DNA of 39,346 bases. It comes from a virus. The notes under the pieces were generated by a model, which saw only the letters and a list, made by a program, of their open reading frames with translations, was not told the DNA's origin and ran no database searches. Each line of letters begins with the position of its first letter. Position 1 is the first letter of the stretch. This document shows, piece after piece, positions 1,468 to 24,073 of this stretch. The stretch lies in IMG/VR virus record IMGVR_UViG_3300032893_003185, positions 1-39,346 of that record. One strand, written 5' to 3'. The translations under genes were made by a program, and so were the position numbers.

Positions 1468-2948
1468 CAGATCGCGCCTTTCCTGCGGATCGCCCGGCGG
1501 AAGCTGGCGTTGCGCGTGTTGCGGTCGTCGTCGTCCCAGTCGCCGGCGCGATCGAGCGCCGTGCGCTTGGGCACGGGGGTGTAATCGAAGGACGCCGGGC
1601 CGGTGTCGGCCGCGCGGCACGCCAGGCCGGCGGCCCAGAAGCGGTCGGCGTGGACGTCGCCGTCATTGACCAGGCGCACCTGGCCTTGGGGACCGGACAC
1701 CTTCTTGATCGCCCGCAGGTCTGAGCGGATGACCGGATCGGCGGGGACGCGGATAAGGCCGCGCTCGAAGCGCTGGACGAGCGATGTCGCCAAGTCGAGA
1801 CGGTTGGGGCCGGTCAGGAGCACGCCCACGACGCGGTAGGCGCCATGACGCTGCTGGGCGTCCTCGACCACCTTCTCGCCCATGCCGGTCTGGTCGATCC
1901 AGCAACTGGCCACCCGCCGGCTAGCGAACAGGGCGTCCATCGCATCGTCCTGCGCCCGGAAGCTGACCCCATATTCCTCGTAGCGGTCGCGCAGCCACAG
2001 AACGTCGCCGACCAGCTCGAAGCCCCAGATGATCGCCCCGTCCTTGCGCCGCGCCACGTCTCGGCCGCCGTACCAGAGGCCGCCGGTGTACAGGCCCGGC
2101 TTTCCGGCGTCGGGGTGCTCGGCCGCCGCCAGGTCTTCCGGCTTGATCAGCGACCCCGAGCCGGCCCGGGGGATGCAGTCCAGCTCCTCGTCCGCGTTGT
2201 CCGAGTAGAAGGCGCGGATGTCGGCCTCGTATTCGAGCTTGCCCTCCGGCGTCGGCGTGTCGCCCTTCACCAGGCACACCCGCTCGTAGAGGCCGTCCGC
2301 CATCGCGTCGGCGAAGGTGATGCGGAGGGTATGGCCCTTCTGTTCGCCGGACTTGATCTTGTCGAGCAGCTCGTTGAACGCGTTGGAAACGCCGTCGTGG
2401 GTGGACACGACGATCACGTTGCCGCCCCATATGAGCATGGCCATGGCGGCCTTGAGCATCTCGGCCAGGTTGTCGTGGAAGGCGGCCTCGTCGAGGATGA
2501 TCTGGCCCTGCATGCCGCGCAGCGACCGCGGCTTGGACGGTAGGGCGACGATCTTGAAGCCCGAGGCGAACTGGATGCGGAAGGCCTGGACCGGCTTGCC
2601 GTTGTCGTCCTCGAAGATTTCCTCGCCGGTCTCCACGCCGATGTGGCCAAACGACGTGGCCCACATGCCGCAGACGTCGATGAACTCGCGGGCCATGTCG
2701 AGGTTGTAGCCGATGTAGAAGGTGTTCTTGCCCCGCGCGGCCCGGCTGCGGGCGGCGCACAGCACGGCCAGGGACGCCAAGCCCCAGGTCAGGCCGATGC
2801 GCCGGCTCTTCTCGATCACCGCCAACGGCGAGGACGCACACAAGGCCACCGCCCTGCGCTGGTAGGCCAGCAACACGCCGTCCACCGGCCGGCCCCGCAG
2901 GGCGTCCGGGATCTCGGCCGGGGTCTTTTCGAAGGGACCCTGGATCAC
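1467..2948 (-). CDS. Mu gp28-like terminase large subunit
   Basis: This 493-residue protein is the packaging motor and headful nuclease of the Mu-like phage. An ATPase Walker A-type motif KSRRIGLTW lies near residues 47-55 and Walker B ILDEAAFH near 151-158. The nuclease half has WIDQTGMG near 351-358 and HADRFWAA near 433-440, as in Mu gp28 relatives. The start is GTG at 2948, which overlaps the TGA of the preceding 72-residue gene (GTGA). The frame is open further upstream to 3227, but that part lies on top of two other convincing genes and reads as Arg/Pro/Gly-rich shadow, so it is excluded. Confidence 0.92.
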   Translation of the reverse strand: MIQGPFEKTPAEIPDALRGRPVDGVLLAYQRRAVALCASSPLAVIEKSRRIGLTWGLASLAVLCAARSRAARGKNTFYIGYNLDMAREFIDVCGMWATSFGHIGVETGEEIFEDDNGKPVQAFRIQFASGFKIVALPSKPRSLRGMQGQIILDEAAFHDNLAEMLKAAMAMLIWGGNVIVVSTHDGVSNAFNELLDKIKSGEQKGHTLRITFADAMADGLYERVCLVKGDTPTPEGKLEYEADIRAFYSDNADEELDCIPRAGSGSLIKPEDLAAAEHPDAGKPGLYTGGLWYGGRDVARRKDGAIIWGFELVGDVLWLRDRYEEYGVSFRAQDDAMDALFASRRVASCWIDQTGMGEKVVEDAQQRHGAYRVVGVLLTGPNRLDLATSLVQRFERGLIRVPADPVIRSDLRAIKKVSGPQGQVRLVNDGDVHADRFWAAGLACRAADTGPASFDYTPVPKRTALDRAGDWDDDDRNTRNASFRRAIRRKGAI

Positions 2949-3163
2949 GCCGGTTGCTCCGACGGGACCAGGTGCGCCGGCAGCTGCCGGCGGAAGCGCC
3001 AGCACAGCCGTTCGAGATAGGCGGCCTGGCGCTCGGTCAGCTCCGGGGGCGCGGCCAGGGCGGCGCGCGCGGCCATGTCGCGGCAAAACCGCTTCTCCGC
3101 CGAGCCGGGCAGGAAGCTGCAGCGGCCGAGGGCTTCGGCCTGACGGCGCTGGCGCTCGTTCAC
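2945..3163 (-). CDS. small protein between gp27-like and gp28-like genes
   Basis: This 72-residue basic protein has no function I recognise. It is coupled on both sides by 4-base overlaps: its GTG start at 3163 overlaps the TGA of the gp27-like gene, and its own TGA overlaps the GTG of the large terminase. The sequence is helical and rich in Arg, Ala and Glu (MNERQRRQAEALGR at the N-terminus, two Cys at residues 15 and 27). Its place inside the packaging block suggests a head or packaging role, but that is inference from position only. Confidence 0.75.
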   Translation of the reverse strand: MNERQRRQAEALGRCSFLPGSAEKRFCRDMAARAALAAPPELTERQAAYLERLCWRFRRQLPAHLVPSEQPA

Positions 3164-3702
3164 CCCGCCACCCCCAGCACCTTGGCCATGATGAAGTCGG
3201 CAGTCTCCTGGCTGAGACCCTTTTCACCGGCGGCCTGCTTGACGGCGCCCACGGCCTTCTTGAGGGCTTCCTTCTGGATCGCCAGCGAACGGTCGGCGTC
3301 GGTCTTGAGGGCCGACGACAGGTCTTTGATCGACTTGGCGAAGAACATCAGGTTCTCGGGGTCGAGCGCCTGGTCCTCGCCCATGCCGGCCAGCATGTCG
3401 AAGGCCAGGGACTGGAAGCCCTGGGCCAGCACCTGCAGGCCCTTGCCGTCCGCGACCTGGGGGCCGATCTGCGCCACCAGGCGGTCGGTGATGTCCTGGC
3501 TGCGCTGGATGCGCGCCGAGATCGCCTCGAACTGCTGAGCGTAGCGGCCGATCGACGAGCGCGACGGCAGCTCGGCCTCGTCGGCCGTCAGGCCCTTGAG
3601 GTGCGCCACGATCCGGTCGAGCGGCACGCGGTCGCGCAGGAGGCGGTTGATCTCCTCGCGCAGCTCCGGCGACAGGTCGTAGACTTTGGAGCGCCCGGCC
3701 AT
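3160..3702 (-). CDS. Mu gp27-like protein (DUF3486), probable small terminase
   Basis: This 180-residue protein opens with MAGRSKVYDLSPELREEINRLL, an HTH-like segment followed by SRSSIGRYAQQF, typical of the DUF3486 family found directly before gp28 in Mu-like phages. Members are thought to act as the DNA-recognising small terminase subunit. The rest is mostly helical with a long coiled segment. ATG at 3702 lies three bases after the stop of the gp26-like gene. Length and neighbourhood fit the family well. Confidence 0.88.
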   Translation of the reverse strand: MAGRSKVYDLSPELREEINRLLRDRVPLDRIVAHLKGLTADEAELPSRSSIGRYAQQFEAISARIQRSQDITDRLVAQIGPQVADGKGLQVLAQGFQSLAFDMLAGMGEDQALDPENLMFFAKSIKDLSSALKTDADRSLAIQKEALKKAVGAVKQAAGEKGLSQETADFIMAKVLGVAG

Positions 3703-7244: not shown

Positions 7245-7619
7245 TCAGAATAGATCGGGCTGGGAGGAAGAGGTTTTCTCGCCTTCTTCAAGCACCTTGT
7301 AAACCCAGCGCTCGGTGATCTTGAGGATGCGGGCGGTCTCGGCCCTCGTCTTGCCGGCGCGGTCGAGGCGCAGGATCTCGGCCCGGCGCTGGGGCGACAT
7401 GGGCACATCGATGTCCACGCCGTGGAAGGCCCCGGCCAGTTGCTCGGCTGCTTCCTGGCCGATGGCGACGGTGATCGGATGGTTCGGCCCAGGCCGGGCG
7501 CGGATGTACAGGCGACGGCCGCCGAAGGCCTCGGTCAGGCGGTGGAAGGCGTCATTTCCCAGAAGCCGGCGCAGGTTCGAGACCGTTGCCTCCAGGCCCT
7601 CGTAATACTCCGCGCTCAT
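7245..7619 (-). CDS. mor: Mor/C-family late or middle transcription activator
   Basis: This is a 124-residue protein of the Mor transcription activator family. The N-terminal half (YYEGLEATVSNLRRLLGNDA, then GGRRLYIRARPGPNHP) is the dimerisation and beta-strand part. The C-terminal half (SPQRRAEILRLDRAGKTRAE, TARILKITERWVYKVLEE) is the helix-turn-helix. In Mu these proteins activate middle (Mor) and late (C) promoters. It is the last gene of the early train and faces the lysis and head genes across a palindrome, as expected. ATG at 7619 overlaps the preceding stop (ATGA); the longer open frame upstream is shadow. Confidence 0.88.
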   Translation of the reverse strand: MSAEYYEGLEATVSNLRRLLGNDAFHRLTEAFGGRRLYIRARPGPNHPITVAIGQEAAEQLAGAFHGVDIDVPMSPQRRAEILRLDRAGKTRAETARILKITERWVYKVLEEGEKTSSSQPDLF

Positions 7620-7867
7620 GCCGCCCATCCCGTGGGCCAGACGTCGAGCGGGATCTGCAGGGTGCGGTCGGTGCCCTCGAACCCGACGATGGCGTAGAGC
7701 CGCCCCTTGCGCACGAACACCGTGGCCACCGGCAGCGGGGCGCGGCCGTCCTCGCGCTGCTCGACCAGGATCCGCAGGCGCGCGGAGGTCAGGCGCAGCG
7801 CCAGGCCGATCGACATGGTCTCGAAGGTGGCGACGGGCTGTTCGGAACGGTGGATCGAGGCGTTCAA
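7616..7867 (-). CDS. hypothetical early phage protein
   Basis: This 83-residue protein has a TTG start at 7867 that overlaps the previous stop (TTGA), and its own TGA overlaps the ATG of the Mor-like gene. It is predicted to be mainly beta strand (RLRILVEQREDGRAPLPVA, TVFVRKGRLYAIVGFEGTD). No domain is recognised. Position just before the Mor-like activator is conserved in style with early Mu-like trains that carry small proteins here. Confidence 0.65.
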   Translation of the reverse strand: MNASIHRSEQPVATFETMSIGLALRLTSARLRILVEQREDGRAPLPVATVFVRKGRLYAIVGFEGTDRTLQIPLDVWPTGWAA

Positions 7868-8073
7868 TGGACAATCCCCTTCACCCGGTCGAGATAGGCT
7901 TCGGCCCGCAGCGCCTCGGCCGTGGCCTGGCGCAGGGCCGCCTCGCGCTGGCGGATCTGTCCATAAGGGGCGCAGCGGAGCTTGCGGGCCGCCTCGGCGC
8001 GCGCCCGGTGCGCGGCGTCGACGTCGGCCAGGGCCTCCTGCTCGTCCTTCCAGGTGAATAGATCGGCGCGCAC
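7864..8073 (-). CDS. hypothetical helical early protein
   Basis: This 69-residue protein is almost entirely helical and rich in Ala, Arg and Glu (KDEQEALADVDAAHRARAE, QREAALRQATAEALRAEAYL). The start is GTG at 8073, four bases after the GemA stop, with GGAGG nine bases before it inside the gemA end. The downstream TTG overlaps its TGA. No function is recognised. Confidence 0.6.
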   Translation of the reverse strand: MRADLFTWKDEQEALADVDAAHRARAEAARKLRCAPYGQIRQREAALRQATAEALRAEAYLDRVKGIVH

Positions 8074-8077
8074 GGCC

Positions 8078-8746
8078 TCAGGCCTCCGGGTCCGGCTGCA
8101 GCGCGCGGATCTCGGCGGCCAGCTGATGGATCGTGGCGTCGAGGTCGGCGCAGCTCTTGGAGATGTCGGGGCGCCCCAGCTTGGCGCACATGGCGGCGAC
8201 CAGGTTGCGGCGGAGGGTCGGCAGCTGGCGGTCGCCGGCCGGGACGATTTGCGACCAGCCCGCGCGCTCGGCCATCGCCTTGAGCGCCTCGATCAGCTTG
8301 TAGGACTGGCCGGCGTCGGCCCACTCCAGCTTGTCGACCCGCAGCTGGCGGCGGCCGAACGACTCCAGCGCGCGGTCCGACGGGTCGCGCACCACGCCCA
8401 GCTGGTGGAGCGAGATCCACATCGCCCGCGCCTTCTTCGCCATGGGCGTGCTGGCGGCCTTGGGCGCGGTCGGCCGGGGATCTGTTTGTTTGCCGGTGGC
8501 CGGCTCTGTTTGTTTGTCCGGGTTCACAAACACGGCCGGCTTCCAGCCCTTGGCCCCGAACTCCTTGAGCACGGTGGCGAGCTGGCCCATGGAGCAGAGG
8601 CTGGCGCTTTGCTGGCCCGTGATGCGGAGAAGGACCGCCCGATAAGTGGCCTCGTCCAGGCCCAGCTCCTTGCGGGCGATATGGACCTTGCCCAGCATCG
8701 CCCGGCGGATCTGGGCGGTGGTGTTGTAGGGAGCTGGGGCGGTCAT
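8078..8746 (-). CDS. gemA: GemA-like regulatory protein (Mu gp16, DUF1018)
   Basis: This 222-residue protein matches the gp16/GemA family. It has the N-terminal block RRAMLGKVHIARKELGLDEA, TYRAVLLRITGQQSAS, a variable Pro/Thr linker near 85-105, and the conserved MWISLHQLGVVRDPSDRALE and the basic RRQLRVDKLEW stretches. In Mu, GemA affects host DNA supercoiling and gene expression and is an early gene placed just before mor. The same order is kept here. ATG at 8746 overlaps the DUF5131 stop (ATGA). Confidence 0.9.
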   Translation of the reverse strand: MTAPAPYNTTAQIRRAMLGKVHIARKELGLDEATYRAVLLRITGQQSASLCSMGQLATVLKEFGAKGWKPAVFVNPDKQTEPATGKQTDPRPTAPKAASTPMAKKARAMWISLHQLGVVRDPSDRALESFGRRQLRVDKLEWADAGQSYKLIEALKAMAERAGWSQIVPAGDRQLPTLRRNLVAAMCAKLGRPDISKSCADLDATIHQLAAEIRALQPDPEA

Positions 8747-9828
8747 GCGGCCACCTGTGGCCGAGCGTCATGGATCACGCCGTCGAGGGCGCGGCCGGCG
8801 GCTTTCTTGCCGACGCGGAAGACCTGATCTGGCAGGGCGGTACGATCGGGGCAGAAGCCCCACTCCCCGTTCTGCTTGTGGTGGTAGGGAACCCCCGCCG
8901 CCGCACACTGATCACGGATTGCCCTGAACCAATCTGGATGGCTCGGCCGGGCCTTATGCTTGCCCTGGTCGGTCTCGCCGCCGGTGATGACCCAGTCGAT
9001 GCAGCTTGTGTCGGGATGGGCATGGACAGTGTCGCCGTCGCAGTCTGGGCAGATGCCGACGAACTCCGCGCCACTGCAGGCTGGGCAGAACTCACCGAAC
9101 CCCGATGAAATTCCGTCGCAGCTCGTGCAGCGCTCCTCAGGAGGCGATCGCCAGGAGCGCCAGCCGCATTCGGCCCTGCACTCGTATCCGCCAGGAAGCC
9201 AACGCATCAGATCCACCGGCTCCAGCAGCGGCTCCATGCTGACGAAGGCGAAGGCCGGATGCAGCCCGGCCTTCGCGTCCAGCAGCTTCGGGATGTCGCG
9301 GTCGGCTTCCGCCTGGGTCACGACCGTGCAGCCGATGGCGGCGTTACGCGGCCACAGCGACTGGCCGAGCCCAACGGACTTGGACCATTTGGCCCGCAGT
9401 TCGGGCGTGATCGCCTGGGCGAATAGCGCCGCGATGTTGCCCGGCCGCTTGGTCAGCAGCAGCCAGGTCAGATGCGGCGTCGCGTGGATCAGGTCGAACA
9501 GGTCGCGGCGCCACTCCCACGGCACAGCGTTGTCAAACACGTCGGCCAGGGAGGCGCAGAACACGAAGCGCGCCGGCGGCGCGGGCAAGCCATTGTCGTT
9601 GGCATACTTGACCTTGGCCGCCTGCTCCCGCTCCCACTTCAGCGGTTCGGCCCAATAGGCCTCCGACGTGCGCTGGCGCTCGCCGTGCGGTCCCCACGTC
9701 ACCCGCTTCAGGCGCGTGGCCATCAGGTTCTCGGCGTAGCAGCCGTCGCACGCGGGGCTGAGCTTGGTGCAGCCGATCCACGGGTTGAACGTGTCGTCGG
9801 CCCAGGAAATGGCGGTGTTCTGGGCCAT
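8743..9828 (-). CDS. DUF5131 (phage Gp37/Gp68 family) iron-sulfur-type protein with zinc ribbons
   Basis: This 361-residue protein carries the family hallmark NPWIGCTKLSPACDGCYAE, with C20, C27 and C30 arranged C-x6-C-x2-C, followed by TWLLLTKRPGNI and FVSMEPLLEPV. DUF5131 proteins look like radical-SAM-type barrels, but their reaction is unknown. This one has an insertion near residues 214-266 with eight Cys (217, 221, 234, 237, 248, 251, 260, 263), probably two zinc ribbons, before the conserved WVITGGETDQG. The start at 9828 shares a base with the upstream stop. A modification of DNA or nucleotides is conceivable but unproven. Confidence 0.85.
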   Translation of the reverse strand: MAQNTAISWADDTFNPWIGCTKLSPACDGCYAENLMATRLKRVTWGPHGERQRTSEAYWAEPLKWEREQAAKVKYANDNGLPAPPARFVFCASLADVFDNAVPWEWRRDLFDLIHATPHLTWLLLTKRPGNIAALFAQAITPELRAKWSKSVGLGQSLWPRNAAIGCTVVTQAEADRDIPKLLDAKAGLHPAFAFVSMEPLLEPVDLMRWLPGGYECRAECGWRSWRSPPEERCTSCDGISSGFGEFCPACSGAEFVGICPDCDGDTVHAHPDTSCIDWVITGGETDQGKHKARPSHPDWFRAIRDQCAAAGVPYHHKQNGEWGFCPDRTALPDQVFRVGKKAAGRALDGVIHDARPQVAA

Positions 9829-10313
9829 CAGCGTTCCCCCTTCGTCGCGTCTCGGGCGCGGTCGAGGATTTGCAGCGCCCGGGCGATATCCGGCTTCTCG
9901 CCGGTCAGGGCGTCGATCGCGGCGTCGATCTGGGCCCGGGCGGCGTGGAGTCGGCCGGTCATGTCGTGACGGCCGATCTGATAGGCGAGGAACTCCCGCT
10001 CGCTGGGCACGGCCTCCAGCGCCCAGTTCCACGCCCGCCGCGCCAGCTCGGCCGCGAGGTTCTTCCGCTCGGCCTCGGTCAAGTGCCCGGCGTTGACCAG
10101 GCGCTTTTCGGGATAGGCGTCCATCCGGTCGGCCTGCTGCAGCGCCTGCTCGACCACGGCAGGGTCGGCCCCGGCCTTAGCGATCAGGGCGGCGTAGGCG
10201 CGCAGGGTCGCGGACGCCTCGCTGTCACGGCCGCGCAGGAAGAAAGTCGGCTCCTCGGCGGGGATGCTGCTGAGGTGAAGGCGGTGGTCGAGATCGTCGC
10301 GGCCGGTTTTCAC
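9828..10313 (-). CDS. hypothetical early phage protein
   Basis: This 161-residue protein starts at GTG 10313, overlapping the TGA of the 90-residue gene (GTGA). It is mostly helical (SATLRAYAALIAKAGADPAV, EQALQQADRMDAYPEKR, LVNAGHLTEAERKNLAAEL). The frame is open upstream to 10676, but that part covers two other genes and is Arg/Pro/His-rich shadow. No function is recognised. It is embedded in the early train between small unknown genes and the DUF5131 gene. Confidence 0.65.
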   Translation of the reverse strand: MKTGRDDLDHRLHLSSIPAEEPTFFLRGRDSEASATLRAYAALIAKAGADPAVVEQALQQADRMDAYPEKRLVNAGHLTEAERKNLAAELARRAWNWALEAVPSEREFLAYQIGRHDMTGRLHAARAQIDAAIDALTGEKPDIARALQILDRARDATKGER

Positions 10314-10582
10314 GCTGCGGCTCCTCTGAGGGTGAAAGCTATGCCCAGGCTTTCGGACACCTGGGTCCACCGGCCGCCGGCCTCGCGGCAGCGGGCGGTC
10401 GCGGTGAAGCGGACGCCGTCGGGCGACACGAACAGCGCGGTGACCGTGGCCCCACGCGCAGTGCGGCGGACCTTGATGGTGGCTGGGCGCTGCCAGTCCG
10501 CGCCGACCAGGTCGAACAGCTCGATCATGGTCTCGGACCAGGCGCGCTCGTAGACGACGGAGGTGCGTTGGCGGCGCTTCAT
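10310..10582 (-). CDS. hypothetical early phage protein
   Basis: This 90-residue basic protein has alternating beta strands (ATIKVRRTARGATVTALF, VSPDGVRFTATARCREAGG). It is coupled by ATGA to the gene before and by GTGA to the gene after. No family is recognised. Size and fold would fit a small nucleic-acid-binding or inhibitor protein, but nothing in the sequence shows it directly. Confidence 0.65.
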   Translation of the reverse strand: MKRRQRTSVVYERAWSETMIELFDLVGADWQRPATIKVRRTARGATVTALFVSPDGVRFTATARCREAGGRWTQVSESLGIAFTLRGAAA

Positions 10583-10992
10583 GACGCCTCCGCCCGGCGA
10601 AGGACCGCGAGACGCTGGAAATCGCGCTTAAGCTGTTCGAGCCGGTGGCTGCATTCGGCGATCTGGGCGGACACAAGCCGCATGCTTTCGGCGACGTCTT
10701 GCCGGGAGACGATCTGGTCGATGGCCTGGGAAATCAGCCACCTTTCCTCGTCGTCGCCTTGAGCCAGGCGCAGGCCGACCTGCGCGATTCCATACCGCAC
10801 GGTGGCGCGGTCGCGGTTGATCGGGCGGCCGATCATGCTCGGCCCTGCGTCCGGCCGGACGAGGGTGCAAAGGTACATACCGCGCTGCCGAACCCGGACA
10901 ACCGGGGGAAGCCGGGAGCCCCCTCCAAGCTCGCCGTGGGTAAAGCCACTCAGTGCGCCGGCGACCCGGTACACTTCCCTCAGGTTGATCAT
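10579..10992 (-). CDS. hypothetical early phage protein
   Basis: This 137-residue protein begins MINLREVYRVAGALSGFTHG at 10992, in ATGA overlap with the GcrA-like gene, and ends in a coiled helix (AECSHRLEQLKRDFQRLAV). A middle strand region contains RGMYLCTLVRPDAGPSMIGR. I do not recognise the family. The open frame continues further upstream over the gcrA-like gene, but only as shadow. Confidence 0.65.
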   Translation of the reverse strand: MINLREVYRVAGALSGFTHGELGGGSRLPPVVRVRQRGMYLCTLVRPDAGPSMIGRPINRDRATVRYGIAQVGLRLAQGDDEERWLISQAIDQIVSRQDVAESMRLVSAQIAECSHRLEQLKRDFQRLAVLRRAEAS

Positions 10993-11495
10993 GACGCCAT
11001 CGCCCTTTGCACGGCCTTGGCGTTGCGGCGGTCCCAATCGGCCGCGGACATGCCCGCTCCGCCGATGGCCGTGTGCTGGGCGCAATAGGGGCCGTCTCCG
11101 TCGCGGGATTCGGCGCAGAACAGCTGGTCCGCGCCGGTCGCCAGACCCACCGGCCAGCGGCAATGGCGGCCCTGCAGCTGCACCAGGCGCAGGGGCTCGG
11201 GCGAGGACCACACGACGCCGGGGGGCTCGATCGGGGGCGCGGGCGGCTGCTCCGACAAAGCCCGCTCGCGGGCGACCTTCGTCTTGACGATGGCCGCGCC
11301 GATCAGCCCCGACGCGCGCTTGGCGGGCGCTGGCGCGGCGTGCCGCCCCGACTTGGAGAGCCCGAGGCGATGCACCTTGGAGATCACCGCGTTCCTGGTG
11401 GTCCCCGGCAGTCGCTTGGCGATCTGGCTCGCGGACAGCCCCTCGACCTGCCACCAGGTCGCCAGCTGCTTTTCGTTCTGCTCGGTCCAGATCAC
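10989..11495 (-). CDS. gcrA: phage-encoded GcrA cell-cycle regulator homologue
   Basis: This 168-residue protein has both conserved ends of GcrA. The DNA-binding domain is near residues 2-46 (MIWTEQNEKQLATWW, GLSASQIAKRL, TRNAVISKVHRLGLS). The C-terminal sigma70-interacting segment has CRWPVG at 112-117, FC at 126-127 and PYCAQH at 136-141. Host GcrA binds sigma70-RNA polymerase and activates promoters carrying CcrM-methylated GANTC sites. A phage copy could redirect cell-cycle transcription or read methylation on phage DNA. The C-terminal 25 residues differ from the host type. It is coupled on both sides by ATGA overlaps. Confidence 0.9.
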   Translation of the reverse strand: MIWTEQNEKQLATWWQVEGLSASQIAKRLPGTTRNAVISKVHRLGLSKSGRHAAPAPAKRASGLIGAAIVKTKVARERALSEQPPAPPIEPPGVVWSSPEPLRLVQLQGRHCRWPVGLATGADQLFCAESRDGDGPYCAQHTAIGGAGMSAADWDRRNAKAVQRAMAS

Positions 11496-11803
11496 GCGAC
11501 CCTCCCCACGAGGGGCTCGGCGCGCTTGAGCATGTCGAGGAAGGCCTGGCGCGCGGGATGGAACAGCCGGCGCACGTGGGCCTCGATGCCCTCCAGGGCG
11601 TCGAGCACGACGGCCTGCTCGGCCGGGGTGACCGGGGCCTCGTCGCCGAAGGCCGCGCGGCGGCGCGCGATCTCCTCGACCAGCTCCTGCTCGAAGTCGG
11701 ACAACACGTCGCCGAACGCCTGGGACAGCACGCCCAGGCGGGTGTGCTTGATCAGGAAGTCGCGGGACGGCGCCGCGAGGACGGGGCGGTTCGGGGCGCT
11801 CAT
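11492..11803 (-). CDS. hypothetical early phage protein
   Basis: This 103-residue helical protein (DVLSDFEQELVEEIARRRAA, EQAVVLDALEGIEAHVRRLF) starts at 11803 in ATGA overlap with a 35-residue membrane microprotein gene and ends in ATGA overlap with the gcrA-like gene. No domain is recognised. The longer open frame upstream is shadow of gam. Confidence 0.65.
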   Translation of the reverse strand: MSAPNRPVLAAPSRDFLIKHTRLGVLSQAFGDVLSDFEQELVEEIARRRAAFGDEAPVTPAEQAVVLDALEGIEAHVRRLFHPARQAFLDMLKRAEPLVGRVA

Positions 11804-11907
11804 AGGTGCAGCCCCAGGGTGCGCAGGGCGACCAGGATCACCACCGTGGCGACGACGCCGCCGGCGATGGCGCCTTCCATGAAGCCGGCTTGGAGACGGC
11901 GCCTCAT
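11800..11907 (-). CDS. 35-residue membrane microprotein
   Basis: This tiny gene lies exactly between gam and the 103-residue gene, with ATGA overlaps on both sides. It encodes MRRRLQAGFMEGAIAGGVVA followed by TVVILVALRTLGLHL: a basic N-terminus and one membrane helix, so the topology is probably N-terminus inside. No function is known. Exact four-base coupling at both ends and a clean membrane segment make translation likely. Confidence 0.6.
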   Translation of the reverse strand: MRRRLQAGFMEGAIAGGVVATVVILVALRTLGLHL

Positions 11908-12425
11908 GACGCCACCTCGACCAGCTGGGCCTCGAAAGGCTCGATGATGAAATCCTCGCCCTCGGAGCCGATCGACACGCCCGCGACCCGGCGCGCGACG
12001 TCCGGCTCTCTGAGCATCGCCTCCTTGTCAATTTCCTCGCTGGTGCGGATGAACTGAAACAGGCCGTAGCGCTTGAAGGTCTCGATGATCACCTCGACCC
12101 CGCGCACCGTCACTCTAGGCGGTCGGGTGCGCCAGAACACCTTGCCGGTGGCCAGCTGGACGGTCTTGGTCTTGTCGCCGGTCAGGGCGGAACGGTTGGC
12201 CTCGCACCATCCCTGGACCTGGCTCTGGGCCAACTCCAGCTCCGCCTGCAGGGGCAGAGCGGCGCTCTGATGCCGCTCCTTTACGGCGGCAAGCTCGTCG
12301 CCGAGGTCGGCGTCGCGGCGCTTCAGTTCGCGCTGCAGCTCGCCGATCCGGGCGACCAGGCGCTCGGCTTCGGCGCGGGATTGGGCGGCCGGCGCGGCGG
12401 GCGCCTTGGCCTTGGAACGAGCCAT
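11904..12425 (-). CDS. gam: Mu Gam-like host-nuclease inhibitor
   Basis: This 173-residue protein matches the phage Gam family. It has a charged N-terminus, a long antiparallel coiled-coil region (AERLVARIGELQRELKRRDA, DLGDELAAVKERHQ) and the conserved beta part (LATGKVFWRTRPPRVTVRG, VEVIIETFKRYGLFQFIRT). Mu Gam is a Ku-like dimer that binds DNA ends and blocks RecBCD-type exonucleases. The ATG at 12425 is preceded by AGGAGT and shares one base with the stop of the upstream microprotein gene. Confidence 0.9.
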   Translation of the reverse strand: MARSKAKAPAAPAAQSRAEAERLVARIGELQRELKRRDADLGDELAAVKERHQSAALPLQAELELAQSQVQGWCEANRSALTGDKTKTVQLATGKVFWRTRPPRVTVRGVEVIIETFKRYGLFQFIRTSEEIDKEAMLREPDVARRVAGVSIGSEGEDFIIEPFEAQLVEVAS

Positions 12426-12517
12426 CAGAAACTCCTGTGAGAAGGCCTGCGCACGGCCAGGGGCCGATGCGTCCAGGCGAGGAAGAGGAAGGTCAGCCAG
12501 CGGCGCAGGGGGCTCAT
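12425..12517 (-). CDS. 30-residue microprotein before gam
   Basis: The short frame encodes MSPLRRWLTFLFLAWTHRPL followed by AVRRPSHRSF. It links its neighbours exactly: its ATG overlaps the stop of the 86-residue gene (ATGA), and its TGA shares a base with the gam ATG. It has a short hydrophobic stretch with many Arg. It may be a real membrane microprotein or a leader that keeps ribosomes coupled into gam, since the gam Shine-Dalgarno lies in its last codons. Confidence 0.45.
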   Translation of the reverse strand: MSPLRRWLTFLFLAWTHRPLAVRRPSHRSF

Positions 12518-12774
12518 GTCCGGCCCCCATCGATGACGACCAGGTGGCCGCTGAAACGCACCGGCTTGCCGCCCTTGTGCAGGGCCGACAGGCCTTCGAG
12601 CGTGATCTCGAAGTGCTCGTCGTCGCGGAGTTTCTCGTCGATCTCGGCGAGGCTGCGGTAGGCGCGGTCCTTGATGGCCGCGAGGCGTTCGGGCGAGAGC
12701 TGGCCCGTCTGAGCCAGGGTGACGATCTGGCGCAGGTCGCGGCGCAGGGCGTCGGTGGGGTTGACGAACAGCAT
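12514..12774 (-). CDS. hypothetical early phage protein
   Basis: This 86-residue protein (MLFVNPTDALRRDLRQIVTL at the N-terminus, then helical PERLAAIKDRAYRSLAEIDE) starts 11 bases after the B gene stop. A GGAGG motif lies just before the ATG. It ends in a beta strand (RFSGHLVVIDGG). No family is recognised. It is transcribed with B and gam, so an accessory part in early replication is possible. Confidence 0.65.
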   Translation of the reverse strand: MLFVNPTDALRRDLRQIVTLAQTGQLSPERLAAIKDRAYRSLAEIDEKLRDDEHFEITLEGLSALHKGGKPVRFSGHLVVIDGGRT

Positions 12775-12785: not shown

Positions 12786-13748
12786 TCACGCGGCCTGGCG
12801 GGACTGCTGGGTCCACGCCTGCTTGAGGTGATCCAGCACGCGGTCCTCGCCCTGGCTGGAGGCCAGGAAGGTGGCCATCTCCATGACCTGGGTCAGGTTG
12901 CGCAGGTGGCCCGGCTGGGCGGCGACGGCCGCCAGGAACTCCAGCTCGCGCGGGTGCTTCACGCCCCAGGCCGCGCACAGGACGGCCACATCGTTGGCCG
13001 TGGGCTTGCCGTAGACGTGGGGCATGGACACGCGGCTGAACAGCTGGGCGAACTCGGCCTTGCGCGCGCCGCCCTGCAGGCGGGTGAGCACCGTGGCGTT
13101 GCCCCCGAACACGATGCCCGCGCCGATCTCGTCGTGGATGGCGCGCAGCACTTCCAGCGAGACGTCGGTCAGATGCTGGGCTTCATCGACGATCAGAAGG
13201 GCGTCGGAGCCCGCCAGGCGGTCGCACAGGATGCTCATCAGGTTCTGGGTGTTGGACCCGGGCTGGTGCGCCCCCAGGGGCTTGAGCAGCTTGTTCAGCA
13301 TCGCGCCGGGCGCCCGCGTGGCGGGGTTCATGGCGCCCAGGTGCACGTTGGGGTGCGTGGCCTGGTACTGCAGGAACGAGGCGGTCTTGCTGATGCCCGG
13401 CGGCCCGCAGACCACCGCGATCTTGCCGCGCTGGGCCCAGGAGCACTGGGCCATGATCTTCCTGGACGTCTCGGTCGGATGGAAATGCGGGATGTCCGGC
13501 GCGTCGATCTCAAGCCGGGTGCGCTCGTCGTGCGAGCGGAAGAACCGCGCGACCTTCCACGCCACCTTGCGGTTGTCGCCGGCGTAGCGGCCCGGTCCCC
13601 ACTGAGACAGGGTGCTGCTGGCGATGTCGGTGGCGATCCCCAGCTGGCCCCAGCTGTATCCGTTGGCGTCCCGGAAGGCCATCAGCCGGACGCGCAGGTC
13701 TTCGACCTCCGCATCGCTGAAATCTTCCTGTCCTCTATCGACGTTCAT
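12786..13748 (-). CDS. B: Mu B-like AAA+ ATPase, target DNA activator
   Basis: This is a 320-residue AAA+ ATPase. The N-terminal helix-turn-helix region (near 10-60, YSWGQLGIATDIASSTLSQW) and the Walker A motif GPPGISKT (115-122), Walker B LLIVDEAQHL (185-194) and a sensor-like FGGNATVLTRL are all present. Mu B forms filaments on target DNA, activates the A transposase and gives target immunity. It is slightly longer than Mu B (312 residues). A 76-base gap with two hairpins separates it from A, a possible control point between the two. Confidence 0.92.
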   Translation of the reverse strand: MNVDRGQEDFSDAEVEDLRVRLMAFRDANGYSWGQLGIATDIASSTLSQWGPGRYAGDNRKVAWKVARFFRSHDERTRLEIDAPDIPHFHPTETSRKIMAQCSWAQRGKIAVVCGPPGISKTASFLQYQATHPNVHLGAMNPATRAPGAMLNKLLKPLGAHQPGSNTQNLMSILCDRLAGSDALLIVDEAQHLTDVSLEVLRAIHDEIGAGIVFGGNATVLTRLQGGARKAEFAQLFSRVSMPHVYGKPTANDVAVLCAAWGVKHPRELEFLAAVAAQPGHLRNLTQVMEMATFLASSQGEDRVLDHLKQAWTQQSRQAA

Positions 13749-13824: not shown

Positions 13825-15789
13825 TCATGGTCGGGTGCGCAGGCGATCGATGCCGGCGCTGAACATGTCGATCACCGAGGCGGGGTCGCGCGTCGGCGCG
13901 GGCGACGCCGCCGCAGCGGCCTGAACAACCACTCCTCGACCGCGCACCGCGCGCACCACCGCCGGCGGTTCGGGCTGGTCGTCCTCGATCGTGCTGGGCA
14001 GGAAGGCCGCCAGCTTGTCGGCGTCCATGATGCGGGCGATCTCCTCGGCCCGACGGGTCGAGCGGCGCAGTTCGCTTTCCTGTTTCGCCCGCCGCTTGGC
14101 GGCCTCCGCGTCCAAGAATGCGGGCTGCTCGAGCAGCGGGGCCGTGCCGATGAACTCGCCGTCGACGCTGTAGACGTGGACCGGCAACAGCAGGTCGTCG
14201 GGGTCGAACCGCACGATGGCGCGGCGGCCGGCGATCGCGTGAAGTTCGGGCGTGAAATAGGTGTTGCCGTAGAGGCGGACCGCGCCCGAGCGCCGATCGA
14301 CCGAGGTCAGCTCGCCCGCCAGCAGCGCCAGGCGCATCTGCGCCTCGGTGGCCATGCCGATCGGTGCGGTGCGGCGGGACTCCTCGTAGACCTGGTCGAA
14401 GCTGCGGCCGTTGGCGGTCTCTGTGCGCCGGCCGAGGCGCGCGTTGTGGGCCTGGATGCCCAAGGCCACCACCGTCTTGAAATCGGCCAGGGCGACGGCC
14501 TTGGCGCCGTAGTTTTCAGGCTTGGCGTCGGGCTTGTTGCCGGTGTAGGCGCCGTCGCAGGCCGGGTGTTTGCCCACCGCCTCTTCCAGGTCGCGGAACG
14601 AGCGCTCGATCGGCTTGGATTGGCCGCGGTACGGGGTGGCCCAGTGGATCTTGACGCCCAGCTGGGTCAGCAGGCCGGTGGGCTCTTCGGGCAGAGGCTT
14701 GAACCGGAAGCGGTTGGACACACCGCCGGTGATCCACTTGGAGGCGAAGGCCCGGCCGTTGTCCATCAGGCAGCCCTTGGGGATGCCGTGGGTGCGGATC
14801 AGGTCGCCGAAGGCCAGTCGGGTGAGCACCGCCGACTCGCTCTCGCCGATGCGCCAGGCGAGAATTTTCCGCGAATAGACGTCCTGGATCATGACCATCA
14901 TCGGACGGGCGATGCGGCTCTCTGGACCCGGCCATTTGACGAACACGTCCCAGCGGTGGCCGTCGATGTTGACCAGCTCCAGGGCGTGGAGCGCCGCGAC
15001 GCTGCGCTGCTGGGGCGGGATCACCTGGCGCAGGGCCTCCTGGCCGTTGCGGCGCATGATCACCACGCGCGGGTCGATCTCGCGCTCCAGGCGGCGCTGG
15101 AAGGTCTTGACGTGGGGCAGCTCGCCCCAGCCCTGCTCCTTGGCGGCCTGTTGGGCGCGGGCGTAGGACCCCGCCCAGGTCGGCTTGGACGGGCGCAGAT
15201 AGTCGGCGACGAAATAATCCCAGGCCTTGGGATGGATCGCGGCCTCGGCGCCGCCGCCCTGGCGGCGCGGCGCCAGGTGGGCCAGCCGATCGTGGACCGA
15301 TACGCCGGCCACCAGGCCGATCCAGTTCCATAGGGTGGCGTTCGAGACGCCTTGGGCGGCGGCGGCGGCCGAGATGGCGGCCGTGCGGGTCTGGCCCTGG
15401 CGCTCGAGCGCCTCGACGGCGTCCACCGCGCGCTGGCGGCGACGGGCCTCGGCCTTGGTTTTCTCGGTCTGCTGCTCGTACCAGGACCACAGCTGCCCTG
15501 CGGTGACCGGCTCGCCCCGGTCAGGCTCGTTGTCGGGGGTGAGCAGGCCGCGCCGGGCCAGTTCGGTGGCCGCGCGGGGCGGCAGGAGCGCGATGTTGTA
15601 CTCGAATCCGCCGCCGCGTCCGGCCCGGGCCCGGGCGAGCGGCGCGCCGCCGGCGTCGGTGCGGAAGGCCCAGCGATTGTCGCTGGCCAGTTCGTTGATC
15701 TTCCGCTTGGTCTGCGGAAGCCCCGGCAGGGCCAGCTCGGCCAGTTCGGCCGCTGTGAACCACGTCTTGTCGCCCCCCCCAGGACCCAT
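13825..15789 (-). CDS. A: Mu A-like DDE transposase
   Basis: This is a 654-residue transposase that joins phage ends to target DNA for integration and replication. The N-terminus (TWFTAAELAELALPGLPQTK) is the Mu-type DNA-binding domain. The catalytic core has D276 (NIDGHRWDVFV), D343 (CLMDNGRAFAS) and E395 (SKPIERSFRDLEE). The D-to-D spacing of 67 equals that of Mu A, D269 to D336. The C-terminal region after about 520 includes a beta-barrel (VDRRSGAVRLYGNTYFTPEL) and a basic tail that would bind B. The start shares a base with the upstream stop (TGATG). Confidence 0.95.
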   Translation of the reverse strand: MGPGGGDKTWFTAAELAELALPGLPQTKRKINELASDNRWAFRTDAGGAPLARARAGRGGGFEYNIALLPPRAATELARRGLLTPDNEPDRGEPVTAGQLWSWYEQQTEKTKAEARRRQRAVDAVEALERQGQTRTAAISAAAAAQGVSNATLWNWIGLVAGVSVHDRLAHLAPRRQGGGAEAAIHPKAWDYFVADYLRPSKPTWAGSYARAQQAAKEQGWGELPHVKTFQRRLEREIDPRVVIMRRNGQEALRQVIPPQQRSVAALHALELVNIDGHRWDVFVKWPGPESRIARPMMVMIQDVYSRKILAWRIGESESAVLTRLAFGDLIRTHGIPKGCLMDNGRAFASKWITGGVSNRFRFKPLPEEPTGLLTQLGVKIHWATPYRGQSKPIERSFRDLEEAVGKHPACDGAYTGNKPDAKPENYGAKAVALADFKTVVALGIQAHNARLGRRTETANGRSFDQVYEESRRTAPIGMATEAQMRLALLAGELTSVDRRSGAVRLYGNTYFTPELHAIAGRRAIVRFDPDDLLLPVHVYSVDGEFIGTAPLLEQPAFLDAEAAKRRAKQESELRRSTRRAEEIARIMDADKLAAFLPSTIEDDQPEPPAVVRAVRGRGVVVQAAAAASPAPTRDPASVIDMFSAGIDRLRTRP

Positions 15790-16256
15790 CAGCGTCGCTT
15801 CCTCGTGAGGTTGATGGCGGGCGCGACCTTTTTCAGGACGCGTTGGCGCTCTTGCAGCTGATCGAGGAGCACCTGGATGTGGCCCATCTCGACCGTGAGC
15901 ACTTCCTCGCCGACCACCAGCTTGCAGCCGATCAGGTGCAGGAGGCTGTCCAGGATGTCGAAGCGCTGGGTCTCCGCGATCAGGGCCAGCATGCGCGCGA
16001 ACGAGATGTTGTGGCCCTCGCGCGCCTCGGCCGCGTAAGCGTCCAGCATCATCTTGGTGACGTCGTCTTCCAGCAGCGCCGAGACGCCGCCGGCGATCTC
16101 GAAGCGCGAGCGGGGGTCGTCCTTGAGGATGCGGCCCACGGCCGAGGCGATCTTGCGCTCCAGGTTCGCCAGCGAGCCCTCGCCGGCGACTCCGGCCGGC
16201 GTCTCGAAGTCGAAGCCCAGCTGCTGGGGGTTGAAGGCGGGGCGGCGCTTAGTCAT
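15789..16256 (-). CDS. hypothetical early protein before transposase A
   Basis: This 155-residue protein has a basic N-terminus (MTKRRPAFNPQQLGFDFETP), a helical middle and a C-terminal coiled coil (VEMGHIQVLLDQLQERQRVL) with a basic end. No domain is recognised. It overlaps the next upstream gene by eight bases and hands over to A by TGATG, so it is clearly part of the early train. Such a gene is not part of the classical Mu order. Confidence 0.65.
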   Translation of the reverse strand: MTKRRPAFNPQQLGFDFETPAGVAGEGSLANLERKIASAVGRILKDDPRSRFEIAGGVSALLEDDVTKMMLDAYAAEAREGHNISFARMLALIAETQRFDILDSLLHLIGCKLVVGEEVLTVEMGHIQVLLDQLQERQRVLKKVAPAINLTRKRR

Positions 16257-16476: not shown

Positions 16477-16684
16477 GCGACTGCCTCGCGCGTTCGGCCG
16501 CGAGCCGGGCCTTGCGGTCGGTCCAGGTTTCGAACAGGTGCTCGTCCCAGTTGTTGGGGACGCTGCGGCCGGGCTCGATCTCGTAGGCGTGGACGGACTG
16601 CCCCTTGGGCGGCTCCTTGCGCGGCGTGCCCCGGGCCGTCAGGCCGGCGGCCAGATAGGCTTTGCGCTTGCCGCCGGGCATCAT
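16469..16684 (-). CDS. hypothetical small basic early protein
   Basis: This 71-residue protein (MMPGGKRKAYLAAGLTARGT, PNNWDEHLFETWTDRKARLA) starts at 16684 in ATGA overlap with the ParB-like gene. A second ATG three bases on could serve equally well. It is basic with an acidic-aromatic middle. No family is recognised. Confidence 0.6.
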   Translation of the reverse strand: MMPGGKRKAYLAAGLTARGTPRKEPPKGQSVHAYEIEPGRSVPNNWDEHLFETWTDRKARLAAERARQSHG

Positions 16685-17889
16685 TCGGCGTCCCCCCGCC
16701 TGGAGGGCGACGGCCGGCCGTCCCGGCCTAGCGCTTTGGCGGTCCGATCAACCGTTCCGTGATCGCCGCCATGCGTCGAAGTCTTCGGCTTTCCCGTGTG
16801 TCCGGCGCGCTTTGCGCCGCCTTTCGCAACGCCGCGTCGGCGAGCGTCAGGGCGAGGAAATACGTCGATCGCGGCTGGTTCGCCGGCGGCGTCCTGGTCC
16901 ACAGATGGGTCAGCAGGTAGGCGCTGTATCCCATCCAATTCGGCGATTTGCGAGCCATCGGCACTCTCCTGGGCCAAGGGGGCCAGAATAGCCCGCAAGT
17001 CGGCCGGTAGGCGCGGGTCGCGAACAACGACGTCGGCCAACACGGCGCGAACGGAGCGGACCGAGAGCCGGCTCCATAGCGCCGCGAACTGGGATTGAAG
17101 CTTGTCTTGTCCCTGCAGCGGCAGTGGTCTCTGGCGGATGATGTCGAGGGCGGCCGAGACGGTCTTCGCGCCGGCGACCAGGTGCTCGACGACGGCCCTT
17201 TGATCGGCTTCCGAGAGCAGCGCGAGGGCGCGCAGCTGGCCCGCATTGGAGGCCACCGGCAGGCCGCGTAGCCGGGCGGCCAGGTCGGGGCGCAGGCCCC
17301 GGTGCAGGGCCAGGTCGCGACGAATGGTGCGGGCGTTCAGCCCCAACTTGTCGCCGACCTGCTCAGACCAGCCGTATGCAACGGACATCGTGTCCGTTGC
17401 ATCCTGGGCATCGGCGGCGAGGGCCTTTGACCAGCGGGTTTCCGCCGATACCGCGCGACCGTCCTTCTGGGGATCGACACCGGCGCGGACCTTATGGATC
17501 GTCACCAACTCGGCGACGAACGCGGCGCGGTCGATCGGGTCGAGCCCCTTGCGCCACAGGTTTTCGGAGATCTCGGCCGCGCGCCGGGCCAGCGCGTCGG
17601 CGTCCACCAGGACGACCTTGAGCGCAAGGCCGGCCGTCAGGGCGCCATGATGCCGGTGGCCGCCTGTGACGAGACGGAAGCCCGCCTGCCCCGGCAGGCG
17701 GCAGACCTTGCACGGGTCCTGCTGGCCTTCGGCCGCCATGATCTTGCCCAGGGCCTCGCCCCAGGCCGAATCGATCGGCCGCAAACGGTCCACCACCTGG
17801 ATCTCGCGCGGGTCGATTTCGAACACCTGATCGACCGGAACGAGAGCCGAAGAGGCCTCTTTGACGCGCAGGGTTGTGGCGGGGGCCAT
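16681..17889 (-). CDS. ParB/Spo0J-like protein in the early train
   Basis: This 402-residue protein has the ParB N-terminal fold: VDRLRPIDSAWGEALGKIMA, the box VTGGHRHHGALTAG near 75-88 (in place of the usual GERRxRA), and ENLWRKGLDPIDRAAF near 109-124. A helix-turn-helix follows (SEQVGDKLGLNARTIRRDLA near 174-193). Host ParB is a CTP-dependent clamp for chromosome partition; phage relatives often act as regulators or nuclease-like proteins. The last 95 residues are Gly/Arg/Pro-rich, and a second gene seems to be nested in this stretch. It lies two bases after the Ner-like gene. Confidence 0.82.
   Translation of the reverse strand: MAPATTLRVKEASSALVPVDQVFEIDPREIQVVDRLRPIDSAWGEALGKIMAAEGQQDPCKVCRLPGQAGFRLVTGGHRHHGALTAGLALKVVLVDADALARRAAEISENLWRKGLDPIDRAAFVAELVTIHKVRAGVDPQKDGRAVSAETRWSKALAADAQDATDTMSVAYGWSEQVGDKLGLNARTIRRDLALHRGLRPDLAARLRGLPVASNAGQLRALALLSEADQRAVVEHLVAGAKTVSAALDIIRQRPLPLQGQDKLQSQFAALWSRLSVRSVRAVLADVVVRDPRLPADLRAILAPLAQESADGSQIAELDGIQRLPADPSVDQDAAGEPAAIDVFPRPDARRRGVAKGGAKRAGHTGKPKTSTHGGDHGTVDRTAKALGRDGRPSPSRRGDAE
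16728..16958 (-). CDS. candidate gene nested in another frame of the ParB-like tail
   Basis: A 76-residue frame starts at ATG 16958 with AGGAGAG about six bases before it. It reads MARKSPNWMGYSAYLLTHLW, then STYFLALTLADAALRKAA and RRLRRMAAITERLIGPPKR, which looks like a folded amphipathic protein. By my count about three quarters of its codons end in G or C, against about 60 percent for the ParB frame over the same bases. Either two proteins are made from this stretch or the ParB tail is a poorly constrained extension. Confidence 0.45.
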   Translation of the reverse strand: MARKSPNWMGYSAYLLTHLWTRTPPANQPRSTYFLALTLADAALRKAAQSAPDTRESRRLRRMAAITERLIGPPKR

Positions 17890-17891: not shown

Positions 17892-18149
17892 CTAGGCCGC
17901 CCCGCCATTTAGACGGTGCGTGTCCCGGTTTCGGGACGTATTATCCGCCTTGGTTCCCTTGAAACGCCCGGGAAAGAGACGGTCGATGGGTTTTCCGACA
18001 TATGCGGCGATGGCCTCGGCGGTCCGTCGCGAAGGCTTGCCGCGCAGGACGTCGCGAACCGAGTCGAGCGGAAGATTCTCGGCGCGCTCGAACGCGCGAG
18101 CCGAGCCATACCCCTTCCTCAGCTGCGCCTTGATATCTTCGGGGTGCAT
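17892..18149 (-). CDS. Ner-like DNA-binding regulator
   Basis: This 85-residue protein fits the Ner/Nlp helix-turn-helix type: MHPEDIKAQLRKGYGSARAF, then SVRDVLRGKPSRRTAEAIAA and the family-typical GKPIDRLFPGRF. In Mu, Ner is the first early gene and turns down both early and repressor promoters. It stands divergent from the repressor gene with only 18 bases between start codons, as expected for a Mu-type switch. The last 16 residues after the domain are extra and overlap a palindrome. Confidence 0.82.
   Translation of the reverse strand: MHPEDIKAQLRKGYGSARAFERAENLPLDSVRDVLRGKPSRRTAEAIAAYVGKPIDRLFPGRFKGTKADNTSRNRDTHRLNGGAA
17922..17937. promoter_or_regulatory. operator-like palindrome GTCCCG-N4-CGGGAC
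   Basis: GTCCCG (17922-17927), spacer GTTT, CGGGAC (17932-17937) lie in the end of the ner-like gene, 33 to 48 bases before the ParB-like start. Its core TCCC-N6-GGGA has the same letters and spacing as the palindrome at 18183-18202. A binding site for the repressor or the Ner-like protein is likely. Confidence 0.45.
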
Positions 18150-18167
18150 TCGAAATCGACTCTCTGA

Positions 18168-18884
18168 ATGAGGGCGCCAAGAAAATCCCAGTCACGGGAT
18201 TTAGAGCCCGAAAACTCGAATGGTCAAGTCGAACCTTCGGGGCGGCGGGCGCTGCTGCCCGAATTTCAGGAGCGCCTGAGGCAGGCGTTGGATGGAAAGG
18301 TCGCGGCGCATGTCGCCAAGGGGGCCGGCCTTCCGCCCCAAACACTCGATGGCTATCTGAAAGGGTCTTTCCCCAGCGCCGATCGTGCGTTCGCCCTGGC
18401 CGACTCGCTCGGCGTGGATCCGCGATGGCTCGTTCTTGGCGTGGGCGAGCCGCACCGCAGCTTCTCCGACAATTCGGATGACGACTGGCTTGTGCTCCCG
18501 CACTTCGATGTCAGGGACTTCGGCGAGCACGGAAAGCCCGAGCCGAAGGAGCATGTGCGCCTTCGTCGGGACTGGCTTCAGGGGATTCGAGCCAGCACCG
18601 GCCTATGGCTGGCCGACATGCCCAGCGACGCCATGCCAGAGATCGCGCGCGAGGGGCAGACGATCGTGTGTCAGGACCCGACGTCGCCGCTGGTCGACGG
18701 GCGGGTCTACATCTTCATGCTCGACGGGCGACTGGTGGTCCGCAAGCTTCAGTTTCGACCGGACGGCATCGCACTAAGGACCAACGATCCGTCCACGCCG
18801 ATGATCACCTTGACGGGCGACCACGCTAATACGTTAATACCGGTCGCCCGCGTCCTTGGAACGATCAACCTCAGCCCGGTGTGA
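18168..18884 (+). CDS. LexA-fold (S24-type) phage repressor lacking catalytic residues
   Basis: This 238-residue protein has a helix-turn-helix near 30-90 (VAAHVAKGAGLPPQTLDGYL, SADRAFALADSLGVDPRWLV) and an S24/LexA-like C-terminal domain. It is divergent from ner and is the lysogeny repressor of the Mu-like phage. In the active-site region the usual G-D-S-M reads SDAM (153-156), putting Ala155 where the Ser nucleophile belongs, and V-K-R-L reads VRKL (191-194), putting Arg192 in place of the Lys. Self-cleavage is therefore unlikely. No other in-frame start codon exists before the HTH region; the ribosome-binding site is weak. Confidence 0.87.
   Translation: MRAPRKSQSRDLEPENSNGQVEPSGRRALLPEFQERLRQALDGKVAAHVAKGAGLPPQTLDGYLKGSFPSADRAFALADSLGVDPRWLVLGVGEPHRSFSDNSDDDWLVLPHFDVRDFGEHGKPEPKEHVRLRRDWLQGIRASTGLWLADMPSDAMPEIAREGQTIVCQDPTSPLVDGRVYIFMLDGRLVVRKLQFRPDGIALRTNDPSTPMITLTGDHANTLIPVARVLGTINLSPV
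18183..18202. promoter_or_regulatory. operator-like palindrome AAATCCC-N6-GGGATTT
   Basis: AAATCCC (18183-18189), AGTCAC, GGGATTT (18196-18202) form a perfect dyad 34 to 53 bases before the ner-like start, where the early promoter should be. It also lies inside codons 6-12 of the repressor as annotated. A GANTC site (GACTC, 18158-18162) sits in the gap between the divergent start codons. Confidence 0.55.
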
Positions 18885-20684: not shown

Positions 20685-20940
20685 GGTCGTTCTCCTCGTG
20701 CCGGGCCTCGCCGGCCGCATCGCGGGCCGCGCCGGCGGCGATCACGGTTCCGGCGGCTTGACTGGCCTTGGCGTCGGCGTTCGCCATCGCCGCCGCGCCC
20801 TTGGCCGCCTCCAGTTCGGCCTGCAGCCTGGCCGCGTGACCGGCTTCCGCGCGCCATAGCCACAGCGCCAAGGCCAGCAGCGACGTGAGCAAAGCCATCG
20901 CCGCCGCCCGCCAATGAGTCAGGATCAGCGCCCAGGTCAT
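20503..20940 (-). CDS. Rz-like inner-membrane spanin
   Basis: This 145-residue protein has one N-terminal membrane helix (AAMALLTSLLALALWLWRAE) and an Ala/Glu-rich coiled coil (AARLQAELEAAKGAAAMANA), as in i-spanins. Its last third is Gly/Ala/Pro-rich because the bases also encode the Rz1-like protein. ATG at 20940 overlaps the endolysin stop (ATGA). Order is holin, endolysin, Rz, Rz1. Confidence 0.8.
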   Translation of the reverse strand: MTWALILTHWRAAAMALLTSLLALALWLWRAEAGHAARLQAELEAAKGAAAMANADAKASQAAGTVIAAGAARDAAGEARHEENDHAIQTAPGSGQGLDPGLNSAGRRGLCLYGAYRGDPACVQLLGPDPAGLSDAGAADPAAGG

Positions 20941-21431
20941 GCGGTCGCCTCCTGCGCGCGCGCCGCCGCCAGCGCCTCGGCCGTCACCGTGTCCACCCGC
21001 TTCAGCCAACCCGCGCCGAACGCGGGAAAGCCGGCCAGGGTGCGATAGCGGGCCGCCCGCGCCGCGCTCATCCGCCCGATACGCTCGCTCGCGCTTCCCG
21101 CCCCCGCGGTGGCCAACAGGCGCCGGGCCTCGCCCACGCCCATGTTGACCGCCGCATCGAACGCCATCAGGTCCAGCCCGGCCGCCAGTGCCTCGCACCC
21201 CGCCGGCCGCCAGTAGAAGGCGCGATAAAGGCTCGCCGCCTCGCCCAGGGTCATATCGCGCAGCGAGTCGGGGGTCGCCGGGCGCCCCAGCGCACGCGAA
21301 TAGGCCGCCAGGGTCACGCCCATATTGGTCGGGCCGCCCCGGTCGCGCGGATCGTCGACATAGCCGCCCTCCAGGGCCAGCACCGTCTGCAGGCACGCCT
21401 CGAACCGGCCCTCGGCCGGCGCGGCGCTCAT
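20937..21431 (-). CDS. GH108 endolysin of the second prophage
   Basis: This 164-residue muramidase has the GH108 motif LEGGYVDDPRDRGGPTNMGV near 20-39 with the catalytic Glu21, then YRAFYWRPAGCEALAAGLDL and FDAAVNMGVGEARRLL. It cleaves peptidoglycan at lysis. There is no signal peptide. It is shorter than the endolysin of the Mu-like phage and lacks its calcium-like loop; the two are clearly different genes. ATG at 21431 overlaps the holin-like stop (ATGA). Confidence 0.92.
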   Translation of the reverse strand: MSAAPAEGRFEACLQTVLALEGGYVDDPRDRGGPTNMGVTLAAYSRALGRPATPDSLRDMTLGEAASLYRAFYWRPAGCEALAAGLDLMAFDAAVNMGVGEARRLLATAGAGSASERIGRMSAARAARYRTLAGFPAFGAGWLKRVDTVTAEALAAARAQEATA

Positions 21432-21742: not shown

Positions 21743-21779
21743 GGCAGTCTCCAAGATTGAGGGAAGGCGCCGGCGGGGC

Positions 21780-22715: not shown

Positions 22716-22788
22716 GAAGGCCTCGCTTGATGCAAAAATAAGGAAACGGGATGTGACGGCGGCCTTGAGCGCTGGCTCCGGCGCCCAC

Positions 22789-24039: not shown

Positions 24040-24073
24040 GGGGTTGGGGGCGGCCAGACAGGGGGCTTTTTGA

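Follow-up and report, generated by a model that had tools for sequence, protein, structure and literature searches.

A GcrA-family gene among the early genes of a Mu-like transposable phage and the exchange of its DNA reader in related phages

GcrA in hosts and in phages

GcrA is among the few activators that act via domain 2 of sigma70 and also read DNA methylation. The protein consists of a DNA-binding domain (DBD, residues 1-45), a linker and a sigma-interacting domain (SID, residues 108-173), with the SID binding sigma domain 2 and polymerase being recruited to m6A promoters (PMC7403470). Phage-encoded GcrA is already known and is not new. The phage-borne GcrA of phiCbK, gp222, was proposed in 2012 to push the host into a replicating state (PMC3556154), and GcrA has been reported in Agrobacterium phage Atu_ph08, Brucella phage Y17 and Sinorhizobium prophages (PMC6630229, PMC11836647, PMC12429752). 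A survey found that GcrA sites are not unevenly placed in phage genomes (PMC9437464). Among other activators, GafY is DnaA-domain-IV-like and binds RpoD (PMC9632790, PMC11150451); it contacts sigma domains 3-4 without a GcrA-type SID, whereas the protein considered here has the GcrA reader. The Mor/C activators of Mu are phage activators that use the host sigma70 polymerase as well.

The DNA analysed here, termed the window, is the whole stretch of 39,346 nucleotides from IMG/VR record IMGVR_UViG_3300032893_003185, and its gcrA gene lies in a Mu-type early operon. The GcrAs of Atu_ph08, Y17 and the Sinorhizobium prophages, unlike that of the window, are not reported within such an operon, and the phiCbK-like phages are giant lytic siphophages with a genome unrelated to the window. 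When the window was compared by tblastn with phage records at E<=1e-3, only Brevundimonas phage Bajun and MW202785 were matched. A literature search found no report placing GcrA in transposable phages; in the one paper whose full text combines GcrA and Mu-like, each term occurred once, with the mention of GcrA belonging to a gene table of phiLM21-like prophages.

The early operon and its gcrA gene

An S24-type repressor (18168..18884, plus strand, start codon uncertain; PF00717 E 7.4e-9, phrog_4 E 5e-20) faces away from the early operon. The first early gene is a Ner-like HTH_35 regulator (17892..18149, minus strand; PF13693 E 7.7e-10), followed on the same strand by a ParB-like gene (16681..17889; phrog_3264 E 2e-30), a CII-like regulator (15789..16256; phrog_2345 E 5e-27), the MuA transposase (13825..15789; PF02914 E 1.1e-49, phrog_310 E 6.5e-148), MuB (12786..13748; PF09077 E 6.8e-17, phrog_296), a Gam-like end-protection gene (11904..12530; PF07352 E 1.5e-34) and u102 (11492..11800), an unknown gene immediately upstream of gcrA that serves as the slot marker in relatives. 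After gcrA comes a second unknown gene, u90 (10310..10582, minus strand), the marker of the slot on its downstream flank, and a DUF5131 gene (8743-9819; E 1.5e-70) is inserted between u90 and the gp16-like gene (8078..8746, minus strand; phrog_286 E 6e-42). Further downstream the operon holds a Mor/C-type late transcription activator (7245..7874, minus strand; phrog_836 E 2.8e-22, PF08765); Mor (PF08765) is a different family from GcrA (PF07750), and the window has both. With MuA, MuB, repressor/Ner, Gam, gp16 and Mor families matched in Mu order, the setting of gcrA was confirmed as that of a Mu-like transposable phage, in agreement with an earlier note on this DNA, which had placed gcrA among the early genes of such a phage.

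A P22-like module occupies 20937-39346 of the window, with endolysin, ejection, tail fibre, coat and scaffold genes, a portal (33677-34843) and a terminase (37077-38354); a separate terminase, at 1467-3227, belongs to the Mu-like part. The gene running off the left end, probably a portal, is common to a Mu-like relative, L016. Probably the record is two phages joined, or else a Mu-like prophage that lies next to or within a P22-like prophage.

The gcrA gene (10989..11495) had been given its right coordinates and its length of 168 amino acids by the earlier note; it lies on the minus strand, runs from 11495 to 10989 from a GTG start and is the one copy of GcrA in the record. Its start codon overlaps the stop of u102 and its own stop overlaps the next ATG, and gcrA therefore lies inside a co-translated early operon. 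PF07750 matched the protein with 101.8 bits (E 6.4e-29, cut-off 26.9), spanning residues 1-144 and profile positions 1-143 of 155, and phmmer against C. crescentus GcrA 7ye1 gave an E of 1.3e-18. As a side observation, Pfam GcrA was also above its cut-off in the control genome Sulfolobus acidocaldarius, which is unexpected for an alphaproteobacterial family.

The motifs GLSASQIAKRL, TRNAVISKVHRLGL, CRWP, LFC and PYCAQH are present in the phage protein. An AlphaFold (AF2) model made from a 12-row alignment had a mean pLDDT of 72 and was confident in the DBD (residues 1-46, 11358..11495, minus strand; pLDDT 85-97). In Foldseek the modelled DBD matched 5yiv, the DBD with methylated DNA, at 0.9 Å with 60% identity and a TM of 0.92 of target, and 28 of its 46 residues are the same as in the Caulobacter host GcrA; by this fold match the N-terminal helix-turn-helix of a methyl-GANTC reader is present, with TRNAVISKVHRLGL as the recognition helix. 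The SID (residues 106-144, 11064..11180, minus strand), which holds C112, W114-P115, C127, C138 and H141, matched 5yix chain B (probability 1.00, TM 0.70 of target, 30% identity), and the C-terminal fold for sigma domain 2 with its CxWP...FC...YCxxH pattern is likewise present, the Cys and His residues being invariant across an eight-row alignment of phage and host proteins. Both ends of GcrA are kept, as had been claimed; sequence and model together confirmed the 168-residue product as a full two-domain GcrA-family protein, whose two domains can almost certainly form.

Caulobacter crescentus GcrA (7ye1/7ye2, 5yiv, 5yix) shares with the phage protein the two domains, the linker and the Cys/Trp-Pro/Cys/Cys-His pattern. 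It is, however, a chromosomal single-copy regulator, which the window GcrA is not, the latter being the product of a phage early gene with a drifted SID and another C-terminal tail. This diverged tail (residues 145-168, 10992..11063, minus strand; predicted helix 151-167) had also been picked out in the earlier note: past about residue 145 the host ending ...LARSLRRYI is missing, and other Mu-like GcrAs retain such an ending in part (RMARYAR). The SID, at 30% identity, stands farther from the host protein than the DBD does (60%), so the predicted sigma binding could be altered.

A retained slot and its exchanged readers

A MuA profile scan of IMG/VR yielded 45 loci, and integrated relatives turned up when 398 Caulobacterales genomes were scanned. 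Local profiles gave the order ParB-CII-MuA-MuB-(Gam)-u102-slot-u90-gp16-Mor in the relatives. A complete GcrA occupies the u102-u90/gp16 slot in the window and in seven distinct Mu-like loci (L023, L024, L026/L027, L039, L045, L048 and L179, the last of which sits in a Caulobacterales genome), and DBD and SID, when scored separately, were both found in all eight GcrA-bearing loci. The window GcrA thus belongs to a retained early-gene slot. Identity to the window's MuA among the seven carriers was 44-60% (most 57-60%, L179 44%), and identity to its GcrA was 33-38% in most of them. In L045 and L048, the only close pair, the dN/dS of GcrA was about 0.6, with the SID the most constrained part (dN 0.125, dS 0.344) and the reader the least (dN 0.386, dS 0.509).

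In a tree whose deep branches are weakly supported, the window GcrA sits on a long branch (1.29) outside the host rows. A single clade of Mu-like GcrAs was not recovered, and this weak tree points to at least two origins. The earlier note had named as a refuting outcome that the gene proves to be a decayed copy recently duplicated from the host and missing from related phages; what was found is a branch apart from the host sequences and a gcrA in the same slot of seven other loci, and a recent host copy was rejected on both counts. A GcrA profile search of IMG/VR gave 142 relatives. Second GcrA-like ORFs were seen in two Caulobacter genomes (L012:916-1650 and L013:12676-13314), where they adjoin genes that by eye appear portal- and scaffold-like; the setting is that of a prophage-like element carrying a diverged GcrA of its own.

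Four further loci carry in the gcrA slot a protein with a DnaA-domain-IV-like N-terminus and a GcrA SID as its C-terminus (L014:9024-9713, L030:7677-8663, L033:8837-9772 and L177:6456-7232), the last of them in a Caulobacterales genome, and these chimeras are a more novel part of the work than the window gene itself. In the model of the L033 protein, the N-terminus matched the DNA-bound form of DnaA domain IV (3pvp, probability 0.99) and the C-terminus matched the GcrA SID (5yix, probability 1.00; 7ye2, 0.97). The Foldseek E-values for these matches were modest (0.09-0.6), and the chimera reading is for that reason based on the agreement of structure, profile and sequence pattern; a PDB sequence search with a chimera alone was weak (E 0.1-0.3). 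A profile of the four chimeras matched 289 of the 398 Caulobacterales genomes; among the matches listed, most cover the C-terminal part only, and 17 such C-terminal-only matches, when retrieved and checked, were host GcrA ORFs with both GcrA domains. Together with the structure comparison, this pattern of matches decided the identity of the C-terminus. Chimeras were also looked for in isolated phages, and none was found there. Directly before the slot protein of L014, the gene at L014:8518-9024 matched the DnaA N-terminal domain (E 2.4e-6).

The occurrence of chimeras in the gcrA slot of four relatives means that the DNA reader is exchangeable. L023 joins a GcrA reader to a linker and SID of the chimera type (DHxxAIxxAL..RR ... 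GRxYCAxHxxxxG ... GRVARxY), from which it follows that the halves are exchanged. The chimeras are like GafY and GafA, the activators of gene transfer agents in which a DnaA-domain-IV-like reader recruits sigma70 polymerase, and the proteins at L007:9499-10269, L009:15260-15937 and L043:9713-10594, with a DnaA-IV-like N-terminus and a different C-terminal helix-turn-helix, recall the layout of GafA/GafYZ. It can be put forward tentatively, as an idea short of probable, that transposable phages of Caulobacterales reserve a place in the early operon for sigma70 cofactors based on the GcrA SID, in which the reader swaps between the two cell-cycle readers of the host, methyl-GANTC/GcrA and DnaA-domain-IV-like, so that either signal could tie phage transcription to replication state.

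Sigma, GANTC promoters and the likely role of the phage protein

The reading preferred here, with a probability of roughly 0.6, is that the product of the window gene works as a sigma70 cofactor of the GcrA family, which the Mu-like phage makes early; its family, its fold, its early position, its retention in related phages and the exchange of readers speak for this. We infer that the C-terminal domain binds domain 2 of the housekeeping sigma factor of the host, so that the protein travels with the host RNA polymerase, while the N-terminal domain would favour m6A-methylated GANTC at promoters. The net result would be more open-complex formation at selected methylated promoters during phage transposition, with a presumed benefit to the phage. 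The targets would most likely be host replication genes supplying transposition, possibly with phage promoters too, and the phage GcrA may redirect host S-phase transcription. Because the SID occurs with either type of reader, the common task of the slot would be bringing the host sigma70 polymerase to phage-chosen sites.

A different use of the same protein, in which phage and host GcrA work chiefly on the phage's early promoter, is unlikely, though it draws on evidence from the relatives. The early-promoter GANTC would then keep its full methylation up to the passage of a fork or of transposition, and early expression would be tied to replication state. In the window there are 38 GANTC sites against about 142 expected (0.27), making this the most depleted of 16 gapped five-base palindromes; depletion was ruled out as a GcrA trait because every relative avoids GANTC whether it carries GcrA or not, those lacking the gene being equally depleted. 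GANTC occurs at 18061 and 18074 within the Ner-like gene and at 18158..18162 in the early control region, and a cluster of three sites at 18061-18158 was discarded as a signal of the window, not being unusual (p 0.16). A weak match to an early promoter, TTGACC-N17-CTAAAT (18199..18227, minus strand), is the window's candidate element and has no GANTC in its spacer. The automatic promoter scan found nothing above chance in the early region of the window, a CcrM-type methylase was sought in the record and none was found, and the 300 bp after Mor, the late promoter region, are free of GANTC in all carriers. As GANTC is missing both from the window's spacer and after Mor in carriers, phage promoters are doubtful targets of GcrA, and the earlier suggestion that they sense GANTC methylation was not borne out for this window.

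In L023, L024, L027, L030 and L178, on the other side, a GANTC lies 1-7 bases after the TTGAC of a likely early promoter, and the 26 such elements of relatives thus hold five cases where 0.6 would be expected (p 4e-4). GANTC upstream of the repressor is commoner in carriers (18 sites, with 17.1 expected from dinucleotides) than in non-carriers (20 with 45.6 expected), and the general background ratio in this observed/expected comparison is 0.2-0.3. L023, L030 and L178, however, look alike and are not independent, GcrA is missing from L178 despite its site, and the difference between carriers and non-carriers, at p 0.01 overall, stands at p 0.13 among TTGAC-bearing loci only. Since three of the five are alike and one is without GcrA, the GANTC beside the early -35 box is a lead and not a result, and the proposal that the phage's own promoters read GANTC methylation is weakly supported.

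It is also quite improbable that the protein, with its diverged SID and tail, takes up sigma domain 2 or GANTC sites but does not activate, and so dampens the host GcrA programme. The low identity of the SID and the replaced tail would suit such a decoy, but every invariant SID residue and both domains are retained, and the exchange of readers seen in the slot would be unnecessary for a pure competitor. That gcrA is a neutral or decaying captured host gene is very improbable: GcrA has diverged faster than MuA in most carriers (33-38% against 57-60%) and the Mu-like copies have at least two origins, but the reading frame is open and overlapping within the operon, GcrA is kept in eight distinct loci, and dN is below dS in the sole close pair, most strongly in the SID.

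The fixing of GcrA in the early operons of transposable phages, with the reader swapped in sister phages, means that the sigma-binding module is portable. The chimeras provide a natural domain-swap set for testing which half decides promoter choice, and, if it is true that the phage senses replication via GcrA, replicative transposition would be linked to the methylation clock of the host.
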